DNA of 64,000 nt from an uncultured Mucispirillum sp. (GTDB lineage: Bacteria; Chrysiogenota; Deferribacteres; Deferribacterales; Mucispirillaceae): NCBI GenBank assembly GCA_944325215.1, contig CALUZC010000001.1, forward strand, positions 62,001-126,000, read 5' to 3'. Below the pieces are notes generated by a model, which had not been told where the DNA came from, did not search any database, and saw nothing but the letters and a program-made list of their open reading frames with translations. The position numbers and the translations under genes were made by a program. Below are positions 52,228-55,928 of the stretch, one piece after another; position 1 is the stretch's first letter; each line of letters begins with the position of its first letter.

Positions 52228-52581
52228 ATGTTGGGCTGTGATATTATTGAAATAGACAGAATTGCAAAGACTATTGATAAGTTTGGATATAGTTTTTTAC
52301 GCCATATACTTTCAGAAAGTGAAATAGCACTTTATAATCAGAAGGGTAAAAAGGCAGAGTTTGCTGCAGGCAGGTTTGCTGCAAAAGAGGCTGTTTCTAA
52401 AGCACTAGGCACAGGTATTGGCAGAGGACATTCTTTTGTTGATATAGAAATAATGCCTGATGATTTAGGTAAACCACAAGTTTTTTTACATGGAGAAAAA
52501 GCAAATAATATAGAGATATCAATATCTCATTCTAAGTATAATGCTATAGCAGTTTGCATAATCAAAGAGGATAAAGAATGA
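52228..52581 (+). CDS. acpS: Holo-[acyl-carrier-protein] synthase
   Basis: Attaches 4'-phosphopantetheine to acyl carrier protein. 117 aa, with 'LGCDIIEIDRIAKTI' carrying the metal-binding Asp at the N-terminus and 'FAAGRFAAKEAVSKALGTGIG' near residue 45 with the catalytic Glu. 'EISISHSKYNAIAV' is the usual C-terminal strand. It overlaps kdsB by four bases. Confidence 0.94.
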   Translation: MLGCDIIEIDRIAKTIDKFGYSFLRHILSESEIALYNQKGKKAEFAAGRFAAKEAVSKALGTGIGRGHSFVDIEIMPDDLGKPQVFLHGEKANNIEISISHSKYNAIAVCIIKEDKE

Positions 52582-53309
52582 GTGCAGTAATAATACCAGC
52601 TAGATATGGTTCTACACGATTTCCAGGTAAAGTATTAGCAGATATTGATGGCAAACCAATGATTGTGCGTGTAGCAGAACAGGCAGTTCAAACTAATTGT
52701 GATAAAGTAATTGTTGTTACAGATAAAGAGCAGGTTTATAAAGTTTGTGAGAATTTAGAAAAAGTTACTGTAATGATGAGCCCTGAAAATTTATCTACAG
52801 GAACGGACAGGGTTGCATTTGCTGCTAAAAGTATTGATGATGATATAATTATTAATGTTCAAGGTGATGAGCCGTTTATTCCGCCTGCATTAATTAATGA
52901 ATTAATAGATGGTCTACAAAATGATAAATCATTAAAAATGATTACGGCTTGTGTTCCTTTTGGAGATATAAATAATTCAGAAAATCCGTCGGCTGTTAAA
53001 GTAATTCTTGATGAAAGTGATTTTGCTGTTTATTTTTCAAGATATCCTATTCCATACAATAGGGATAATATAGAAGATATTGTTAGATACCGTCATATTG
53101 GTATATATGGTTTTAGGCGTGATTATTTATTTGAATTTGCAACACAGGAAAGAACATTTTTAGAAAGATGTGAAAATTTAGAACAATTAAGAGCAATAGA
53201 AAAAGGTGTTAAAATAAAGGTTATTAAAACTGATTATAATCCTTTATCTGTTGATACGTATGAAGATTTACAGAATATATTAAAAATATTAGAAATGAGG
53301 AAAAATTAA
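52578..53309 (+). CDS. kdsB: 3-deoxy-manno-octulosonate cytidylyltransferase
   Basis: KdsB activates Kdo with CTP to CMP-Kdo for lipid A-core synthesis. 243 aa; 'VIIPARYGSTRFPGKVLADIDG' split around the nucleotide-binding loop, 'NVQGDEPFIPPALI' near residue 94 and 'YFSRYPIPYNRD' near residue 151 identify it. The CTP it uses is made by pyrG, which starts two bases downstream, and the Kdo pathway enzyme kdsD follows pyrG. Confidence 0.95.
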   Translation: MSAVIIPARYGSTRFPGKVLADIDGKPMIVRVAEQAVQTNCDKVIVVTDKEQVYKVCENLEKVTVMMSPENLSTGTDRVAFAAKSIDDDIIINVQGDEPFIPPALINELIDGLQNDKSLKMITACVPFGDINNSENPSAVKVILDESDFAVYFSRYPIPYNRDNIEDIVRYRHIGIYGFRRDYLFEFATQERTFLERCENLEQLRAIEKGVKIKVIKTDYNPLSVDTYEDLQNILKILEMRKN

Positions 53310-53310
53310 T

Positions 53311-54939
53311 ATGGCTAAGTATATATTTGTAACAGGTGGTGTATTATCATCATTAGGTAAAGGGATTACTGCAGCATCGCTTGGTGCATTACTTGAGTCG
53401 CGTGGTTATAAAGTTGCTTTAAGAAAATTTGACCCTTATTTAAATTATGGTCCTGGAACAATGAGCCCTTTACAGCATGGAGAAATATTTGTTACTGCAG
53501 ATGGTTGTGAAGGTGATTTAGATTTAGGTCATTATGAACGTTTTACAACTACTAATACTGACGAATTTTCTGATATTACTTCTGGTAAAATATACTATAC
53601 AGTAATTGAGAGAGAACGTCGTGGAGAATATCTAGGAGCAACTGTTCAGGTTATACCACATATTACTGATGAAATAAAAAAATGTATTTCAGCAGGTGCA
53701 GAAGACTATGATATTGTGATTACAGAAATTGGCGGCACTGTTGGTGATATAGAAGGGCTTCCATTTTTAGAAGCAATTAGGCAAATGAAATTTGATACTG
53801 ATGAAAATGATGTATTATTTTTACATGTTACATTAGTTCCATATATTAAAAGTGCAGGGGAATTAAAAACGAAACCAACTCAACATTCTGTAAGGCAGTT
53901 ACAGGAAATAGGTATCAGCCCTGATATTTTAGTGTGTAGAAGTGAGTATCCATTAAGTGAGAGCGTTAGAAATAAACTTGCACTTTTTTGCAATGTAGAA
54001 AAATCATCAGTTATTAACTGTATGGACGCAGCAACAATATATCAAGTTCCTATTATTTTAAATGAAGAAGGGCTTGATAGTGAGGTTATAAAAAAGCTTA
54101 ATTTAGAAGAAAGGGAATATGATTTATCTTTATGGCAGGATATTGTTCGTAGAATCAAGCAGCCAAAAGACAGCGTTACGATTGCTGTTGTAGGTAAATA
54201 TTTGGAAACTAAAGATGCATATTTAAGTTTAACAGAAGCATTGTTACATGGTGCTGTGGCAAATTATTTAAAAGCAGATATAAAATGGATTGATGCAGAA
54301 CTTTTAGAAAATAGAATGGCAAATGAATATTTAAATAATGTTGACGGTATTTTAATTCCTGCAGGATTTGGTGAGCGTGGTATGGAAGGCAAAATATCAG
54401 CAGTTAATTTTGCAAGAACGAAAGATATTCCTTTTTTTGGAATTTCTATGGGTTTACAGGCATCTGTAATAGAGTATGCTCGTAATGTTTTAAAATTAGA
54501 AGATGCAAAAAGTGCGGAAATGTCAAAACCTGCTGGCAGTAAAAATTTAGTTATTGATTATAAGCACGATGAACATTATAATGAAGAGATGGGTGCATCA
54601 ATGCGTCTTGGTTCTTATACTACATCATTACTTACTGGCAGCTTGGCTAAAGAAATATATAAGAATGAGGATACTATAACTGAAAGACACAGACACAGGC
54701 TTGAAATTAATAATGAATACAGGCAGCTTTTAGAATCAGCAGGAATGGTTATATCAGGTAACAATAATGATAGTGGATTTGCTGATATTATTGAACTTCA
54801 ATCACACAGGTGGTATATTGCTACTCAATTTTGTCCTGAATTTCAATCAAAACCATTTAACCCACACCCTTTATTTAATGCATTTATACAAGCTGCATAT
54901 AAATTTAAGCAGGATAGAAACAATATAGAAAAAGAATAA
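53311..54939 (+). CDS. pyrG: CTP synthase with degenerate glutaminase domain
   Basis: Makes CTP from UTP, ATP and a nitrogen donor. The synthetase domain (about residues 1-270) is recognisable: 'VTGGVLSSLGKGITAASLG', 'GTMSPLQHGEIFVT', 'EIGGTVGDIEGLPF'. The glutaminase domain keeps its fold ('GFGERGMEGKI', 'ERHRHRLEINN'), but the nucleophile elbow reads 'GISMGLQ' with Ser379 (TCT, 54445) in place of the catalytic Cys, and the dyad reads 'QFCPEF' with Cys508 (TGT, 54832) in place of His; Glu510 remains. Glutamine hydrolysis should be lost and ammonia used directly; this is inferred from known CTP synthase chemistry. Length (542 aa) is normal. It lies between kdsB and kdsD. Confidence 0.93.
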   Translation: MAKYIFVTGGVLSSLGKGITAASLGALLESRGYKVALRKFDPYLNYGPGTMSPLQHGEIFVTADGCEGDLDLGHYERFTTTNTDEFSDITSGKIYYTVIERERRGEYLGATVQVIPHITDEIKKCISAGAEDYDIVITEIGGTVGDIEGLPFLEAIRQMKFDTDENDVLFLHVTLVPYIKSAGELKTKPTQHSVRQLQEIGISPDILVCRSEYPLSESVRNKLALFCNVEKSSVINCMDAATIYQVPIILNEEGLDSEVIKKLNLEEREYDLSLWQDIVRRIKQPKDSVTIAVVGKYLETKDAYLSLTEALLHGAVANYLKADIKWIDAELLENRMANEYLNNVDGILIPAGFGERGMEGKISAVNFARTKDIPFFGISMGLQASVIEYARNVLKLEDAKSAEMSKPAGSKNLVIDYKHDEHYNEEMGASMRLGSYTTSLLTGSLAKEIYKNEDTITERHRHRLEINNEYRQLLESAGMVISGNNNDSGFADIIELQSHRWYIATQFCPEFQSKPFNPHPLFNAFIQAAYKFKQDRNNIEKE

Positions 54940-54956: not shown

Positions 54957-55928
54957 ATGGATAGAAAAACTATTATAAAAAATGGTAAACAAACATTTGA
55001 AATAGAAATAGATGCAATGAAAAAAGCAATGAACAGTCTTGGTGAAAGTTTTGCTGAAGCAGTGGAGATTATTCTTGGCTGCAAAGGCAGAGTGGTTGTT
55101 ATTGGTATGGGTAAGTCTGGCTTGATTGGTAAAAAAATAGCAGCAACTCTTGCAAGCACTGGCACACCAGCTTTTTTTATGCATCCTGCAGAAGGAATGC
55201 ATGGTGATTTGGGTATGCTTGTTAAAGGTGATGTTATCATAGGTATTTCAAACAGTGGTGAAACTGAAGAAATGAAAGTTTTACTGCCTTTAATTAAGCG
55301 ACTAGGTTCTAAACTTATATCTATTGTAGGCAGAGCAGATTCAACATTAGGCAGGGAAAGTGATTGTATTTTAGATGCATCTATTGATAAGGAAGCCTGC
55401 CCCTTAAATTTAGCACCAACAGCAAGTACAACTGTAGCTTTAGCAATAGGTGATGCATTAGCTGTTGCCTTAGTTGAGTGCAGGGGTTTTAAGGCAGAAG
55501 ATTTTGCTATGTTTCACCCATCAGGCTCTTTAGGTAAACGTTTGCTTACAACAGTAGATGATATTATGCACAAAGGTTCTGAAGTTCCTGTTATTAATGA
55601 GAATGATATAGTAGAAAAAGCAGTTGAAGAAATTAATAATAAAAAATTTGGCTGCACTGCTGTTATTAATGATAATAAAGAACTTGTGGGCATTATTACA
55701 GATGGAGATTTAAGAAGAGCAATTACAAAATATAGTGTAATAAACAGCTTAAAAGTATCAGAAATTATGACTTGTAATCCAAAAATGATAAAGAAAAATG
55801 AGCTGGCAGCAAAAGCTCTACATATTATGGAAGAATTTAAAATTTCATCTCTTTTTATTATTGATGAAAATAAAACACCAGAAGGAATTATTCATTTTCA
55901 AGATTTATTACAATACGGTTTAGTGTAG
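54957..55928 (+). CDS. kdsD: Arabinose-5-phosphate isomerase
   Basis: Converts ribulose-5-phosphate to arabinose-5-phosphate, the first step of Kdo synthesis. The 323-aa product has a SIS domain ('GMGKSGLIGKKIAATLASTG', 'HPAEGMHGDLGM', 'ISNSGETEEM') and two C-terminal CBS domains (from about residue 205, 'IMHKGSEVPVINENDIVEKA'). KdsD, lptC, lptA and lptB in a row form the conserved LPS synthesis-and-export block. Confidence 0.94.
   Translation: MDRKTIIKNGKQTFEIEIDAMKKAMNSLGESFAEAVEIILGCKGRVVVIGMGKSGLIGKKIAATLASTGTPAFFMHPAEGMHGDLGMLVKGDVIIGISNSGETEEMKVLLPLIKRLGSKLISIVGRADSTLGRESDCILDASIDKEACPLNLAPTASTTVALAIGDALAVALVECRGFKAEDFAMFHPSGSLGKRLLTTVDDIMHKGSEVPVINENDIVEKAVEEINNKKFGCTAVINDNKELVGIITDGDLRRAITKYSVINSLKVSEIMTCNPKMIKKNELAAKALHIMEEFKISSLFIIDENKTPEGIIHFQDLLQYGLV

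Follow-up and report, generated by a model that had tools for sequence, protein, structure and literature searches.

Results

The pyrG1 locus and the residues of its glutaminase site

The window (the whole stretch of 64,000 nucleotides analyzed here) comes from contig C1 in a Mucispirillum-type genome of 2.55 Mb and carries a CTP synthase gene, pyrG1, whose product departs from E. coli PyrG at the catalytic residues of the glutaminase site. The genes, domains, and codons concerned are as follows:

52578..53309, + strand: kdsB (CMP-Kdo synthetase), which uses CTP and adjoins pyrG1; the kdsB-pyrG order is ancestral in the taxonomic order
53311..54939, + strand: pyrG1, native CTP synthase of 542 aa, glutaminase-dead (ORF; NCBIfam NF003792, 792.8 bits with a cut-off of 308; TIGR00337, 755.7 bits with a cut-off of 462.75)
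53311..54105, + strand: amidoligase (synthase) domain of PyrG1, about residues 1-265, with its catalytic residues intact (boundaries taken from E. coli 1-266; PMC9138612)
53449..53451, + strand: codon 47 (E. coli Asp48), Gly
53485..53487, + strand: codon 59 (E. coli Val60, the ammonia-tunnel gate; PMC9138612), Ile
54166..54915 (approximate limits), + strand: class I glutamine amidotransferase (GATase) domain of PyrG1, catalytically broken but folded
54361..54363, + strand: codon 351 (Gly351 of the oxyanion region), Ala (GCA)
54445..54447, + strand: codon 379, Ser (TCT) in place of the catalytic Cys, motif FFGISMGLQ
54832..54834, + strand: codon 508 (E. coli His515), Cys (TGT) in place of the catalytic His, motif TQFCPEF
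54957..55928, + strand: kdsD/kpsF-type arabinose-5-phosphate isomerase gene

The ORF is unbroken over 542 codons from its ATG start, and reading codons 379 and 508 gives the Ser and the Cys that the preliminary description had reported; its further statements that Cys379, His515, and Glu517 form the triad of E. coli PyrG (residues taken here from NC_000913) and that kdsB neighbors pyrG1 are likewise borne out. In 114 reference PyrG sequences, conservation is 97% or more at Cys379 and at His515 alike, which puts both replacements well outside chance variation. Besides Gly351, Asp48, and Val60, Leu380 is also replaced, by Met. With Ser, Cys, and Glu at the triad positions, PyrG1 lacks the triad required of a class I glutaminase, and by this sequence criterion it is a PyrG homolog that should not be classed as a glutamine-hydrolyzing CTP synthase.

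PyrG1 resembles E. coli PyrG (TIGR00337, EC 6.3.4.2) in its two-domain architecture, with 49% identity over the full length (structural match), and in its amidoligase catalytic residues and most residues of the GTP site, but differs from it at Cys379, His515, Gly351, Asp48, which lies before the L2 loop, and Val60. An AlphaFold2 model of PyrG1 (mean pLDDT 90.3, pTM 0.90) finds E. coli CTP synthase as its best PDB matches in Foldseek (TM 0.94), and PyrG1 is predicted from this model to keep the CTP synthase fold. The locus itself is the ancestral kdsB-pyrG-kdsD neighborhood, which is the same (with kdsA too in some) in outgroups whose PyrG has an intact Cys.

Distribution in the Mucispirillum family and its sister family

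The Ser379/Cys515 form is found in nine genomes of the Mucispirillum-type genus (g1), that of the window included, and its codons vary between species (TCT or TCA; TGT or TGC) while the amino acids are constant. Orthologs 98%, 94%, and 90% identical, from other assemblies that include a single contig of 2.35 Mb (G006), have the same residues in different synonymous codons, and a record of an uncultured Mucispirillum sp. (same contig as genome G004) encodes a protein 90% identical to PyrG1 of the window. A sequencing error at 54445 and 54832, which the preliminary description had named as a possible undoing of its reading, is excluded by these orthologs and their varied synonymous codons. More broadly, the idea that sequencing error, a pseudogene, or contamination lies behind the changes is already refuted by the independent assemblies with the same residues in different codons, the intact frames, and the single-contig genome, and we give it virtually no credence.

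Alignment of PyrG sequences from Deferribacterota makes the substitutions a trait of the lineage, with Ser379 and Cys515 in g1, Ser379 and a retained His515 in the sister genus g3, and Gly379 and a retained His515 in the four species of genus g2. The PyrG sequences read from other families of the same order have both Cys and His intact, except in the sister family f4 (two genera), in which G017 (95% complete) and G031 (87% complete) encode a PyrG with Ser379 and Leu515, the only one detected in each with two different queries. With the trait columns removed, the native copies of the Mucispirillum family (f1) group with these two from f4 in a single clade (bootstrap 97, SH-aLRT 96), and in all of them Asp48 is replaced by Gly, Ala, Ser, or Asn, which the tree accounts for with one change.

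This tree and residue parsimony would permit Cys379 to have been lost just once for f1 and f4 together, but we rejected this because the serine-379 codons, TCN in f1 and AGY in f4, are not one base apart and argue for at least two nucleotide paths. The Cys was thus probably lost by separate mutations in the two families, after an earlier shared change. The shared loss of Asp48 may be older than that of Cys379; residue 48 just precedes positions 50-55, which line the GTP cleft and extend toward the tunnel gate Pro54-His57-Val60 (PMC9138612), and we infer that its change weakened glutamine coupling first. In three further f4 genomes (G024, G035, and G037; L160, L161, and L162), only a distantly related intact PyrG was found, outside the kdsB-kdsD locus, as if the native glutaminase-dead copy had been replaced by a foreign PyrG.

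A second, intact pyrG

The preliminary reading had depended on there being no second intact pyrG elsewhere, and on this point it fails. The genome of the window has another CTP synthase gene, pyrG2 (G000:C14:17030-18589), whose product is about 50% identical to PyrG1. Unlike PyrG1, PyrG2 has the full Cys, His, and Glu triad, as glutamine-using enzymes do, and branches outside the PyrG clade of Deferribacterota; judging by this placement, it was acquired horizontally. Its gene lies between guaA and glmS in g1, g2, and g3, which indicates that its entry predates the split of the three genera. The guaA-pyrG2-glmS cluster (L112:3272-9250, G000:C14) sets three glutamine amidotransferase genes in a row, and the next gene, of 260 aa, has a weak match to endonuclease IV. 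pyrG2 occurs in every f1 genome that yielded a PyrG, the exception being the Mucispirillum-type G004 (96% complete, 80 contigs; L005, L227), where only the glutaminase-dead pyrG was detected and where the absence of pyrG2 may reflect either a gap in the assembly or a true loss.

By the sequence of PyrG2, the organism very probably also has a glutamine-dependent CTP synthase. The earlier claim of CTP synthesis from free ammonia is thus supported in part: its premise stands, a broken triad in an otherwise conserved enzyme, but as a statement on the CTP route of the organism it is not supported, because an intact pyrG2 exists. It is thereby narrowed to PyrG1, for which an ability to use ammonia only is the best explanation. 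We rejected the idea that class I glutaminases have been lost generally from the genome, since the three other class I GATases found keep their Cys (carA, GICLGHQ; guaA, GICYGAQ; hisH, GICIGMQ).

Cys-less PyrG outside the family

A first search of the collection gave two Bacillota records with Ser379 (L082 and L111), and a screen of 399 sampled Bacillota species, centered on G061, for a non-Cys codon in the motif, with confirmation by tblastn, yielded G061, G202, G431, G361, G265, G239, and G376. Residue 379 is Ser in PyrG of G060, G061, G202, G239, G376, and G431, and Gly in that of G265 and G361. At least 6 of the approximately 398 other sampled species, on several branches, thus have Ser or Gly at this position, a lower bound given the strict pattern, and the tree of the compared PyrG sequences requires at least five changes of state at residue 379. 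Other pattern hits (G452, G171, G251, G113, G189, and others, and all those from Acidobacteriota) were discarded as not PyrG by tblastn. Among 297 Acidobacteriota, one of the two patterns found no Cys-less PyrG; the same pattern gave 5 of 399 in Bacillota, a difference that is not significant (P ~0.075), and no habitat association is therefore claimed.

A second, intact PyrG is present in G202 and G431. In G431, which also carries a PyrG with Ser379 and Gln515, the intact gene lies in a region (G431:C29; L224:1953-12636) with genes that by sequence appearance are carA, carB, a NadE-like gene, and glmS, and this carAB-pyrG group near glmS resembles the Mucispirillum arrangement. The Cys-less PyrG is the only copy detected in G361, G265, G060, and G061 (two different queries) and in G239 (one query), and G376 has only a short, weak hit besides. 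The PyrG of G376 (G376:C155:2266-3852, L225), with Ser379, is far more degraded on its glutaminase side (Glu403 to Tyr, Arg356 to Pro, Arg440 to Cys), its amidoligase catalytic residues being intact. G361, with 2.76 Mb of its 2.8 Mb genome in one contig, is nearly closed and appears to depend on its Gly379 PyrG. As only a Cys-less PyrG was detected in G017, G031, G060, G061, G265, G361, and G239, such an enzyme is apparently sufficient for CTP, with the proviso that the status of only copy is unproven for most of the Bacillota genomes, whose completeness is not given. The strongest support for living on a Cys-less PyrG alone comes, by detection, from G017 and G031 of f4 and from G361 and G265 of Bacillota, and not from the genome of the window.

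Active sites of PyrG1 and selection on its gene

PyrG1 departs at only two (38 and 186) of the 27 amidoligase catalytic or contact positions tested, both changes being conservative and at positions variable in intact enzymes; the P-loop, K40, D72, E140, K187-Q192, and K223, among others, are all in place. The amidoligase catalytic residues are retained in the other Cys-less PyrGs too, and their glutaminase and GTP-activation residues are damaged differently from lineage to lineage. At the GTP site, PyrG1 keeps T51, M52, H57, E68, R105, L109, R356, R440, R468, and R470, with Glu for D107 and Ser for T438. This largely kept site in g1 would fit retained allostery as well as ammonia-only catalysis.

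Glu517, Gln383, Glu403, and Arg470 are retained as well, and the Cys that sits exactly at the former His position is conserved in 9 of 9 g1 genomes, both of which would suit an enzyme that still hydrolyzes glutamine by another arrangement, for example with Ser379 or the newly gained Cys508 acting as the nucleophile. We consider such an arrangement very improbable, since g3 and g2 of the same clade have a Cys at neither position, g1 has no His base for the nucleophile, the oxyanion Gly351 is altered too, and human CPS1, with its Ser, does not use glutamine (PMC4655335).

pyrG1 is under strong purifying selection in both domains. Its dN/dS within g1 (0.039 in the amidoligase domain and 0.078 in the GATase domain) equals that of pyrG2 (0.041 and 0.084, respectively), so that selection is not relaxed and the dead domain is as constrained as the live one. 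This result weakens the proposition that the native pyrG1 became redundant after the arrival of pyrG2 and is heading for loss by non-adaptive decay. A redundant intact copy is present and the positions lost are those required for glutamine use, as decay would have it; however, a dN/dS of 0.04-0.08 that matches the intact copy across many species, the occurrence of Ser379 also where no second copy was found, and the persistence of the native gene in its ancestral neighborhood make decay quite unlikely.

A further possibility is that PyrG1 makes little CTP and is a regulatory or structural paralog, a CTP-, UTP-, and GTP-binding subunit that would co-assemble with PyrG2 in mixed tetramers or filaments and tune its activity. 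The conservation of both copies together in nearly all f1 genomes, the retention of nucleotide-site residues in PyrG1, and the fact that CTP synthases are tetramers that form filaments (PMC9138612) speak for this role. PyrG1 nevertheless retains catalytic amidoligase residues that a pure regulator would not need, no partner is detectable for the Cys-less PyrG of f4 or for that of several Bacillota, and PyrG1 and PyrG2 are only about 50% identical; we hold this role to be unlikely, if less so than decay.

Discussion

The reading that we regard as probable, with reservations, is that pyrG1 encodes the native Deferribacterota CTP synthase turned into an ammonia-only enzyme, the glutamine route being left to PyrG2. 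PyrG1 would phosphorylate UTP with ATP, and NH3 would enter by the vestibule and tunnel and aminate the phosphorylated UTP, a route already used in ordinary CTP synthases; the dead glutaminase domain would persist in a structural role, supporting tetramer, tunnel, and GTP site. Glutamine-dependent CTP synthesis would fall to the horizontally acquired PyrG2, and we infer that the two copies split the substrates, ammonia for PyrG1 and glutamine for PyrG2. The E. coli G352P CTP synthase has no glutamine activity and almost full activity with NH4Cl (PMC9138612); exogenous NH3 is used by CTP synthases without the glutaminase, so loss of the Cys would leave the ammonia route. M. schaedleri reduces nitrate to ammonium, and ammonia assimilation is possible there by GdhA and GlnA (PMC5285517); in the genome of the window, an NrfA-family match exceeds the Pfam cut-off. 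Some points count against the ammonia-only reading. The genome has an intact PyrG2, so that pyrG1 need not make CTP at all; the GTP site, largely kept in g1, would suit retained allostery equally well; and the tunnel gate is altered by the Val60 to Ile change, which may be unfavorable; in E. coli CTP synthase, V60F blocks exogenous NH3 unless GTP is bound (PMC9138612).

A precedent for an ammonia-only enzyme of this kind is human CPS1, in which replacement of the catalytic Cys by Ser in a class I GATase domain explains the use of ammonia only (PMC4655335). PyrG1 likewise retains the domain with Ser in place of the Cys, but CPS1 is an ATP-grasp enzyme that makes carbamoyl phosphate, and the analogy is one of mechanism and evolution, not of membership. 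Reliance of bacteria on free ammonia within an ATP-dependent amidotransferase family is known from ammonia-dependent single-domain NadE (PMC3376133), although NadE of this type, unlike PyrG1, has no glutaminase domain at all. In its survey of 800 genomes, that 2012 paper listed 100% of CTP synthetases as glutaminase fusions and none without this component (PMC3376133); the survey scored domain presence and not catalytic residues.

CTP synthase has been treated as a universally glutamine-dependent enzyme, and a literature search of incomplete coverage found no published description of a naturally glutaminase-dead one. What is new is a variant of a known enzyme, with a mode of action already known from CPS1. 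The TIGR00337 equivalog, named glutamine hydrolyzing CTP synthase, accepts PyrG1 far above its cut-off, so that automated annotation misnames the protein and hides the change.

A broader proposition, which we can entertain nearly as readily as doubt, is that CTP synthases restricted to ammonia form a natural class that has arisen repeatedly in bacteria. The PyrG glutaminase would have been lost several times, the resulting ammonia-only enzyme serving as the sole CTP synthase in some lineages; in others it would share the work with an intact PyrG that uses glutamine, as in the guaA-pyrG2-glmS cluster of the Mucispirillum family and the carAB-pyrG group near glmS of one Bacillota genome, ammonia and glutamine being divided between the two. 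If Cys-less PyrGs run on ammonia, glutamine-analog inhibitors such as DON and acivicin should fail on them, the proteins would offer natural separation-of-function variants with which to study the ammonia tunnel and control by GTP, and the CTP supply of some gut and other bacteria would be tied directly to ammonia.
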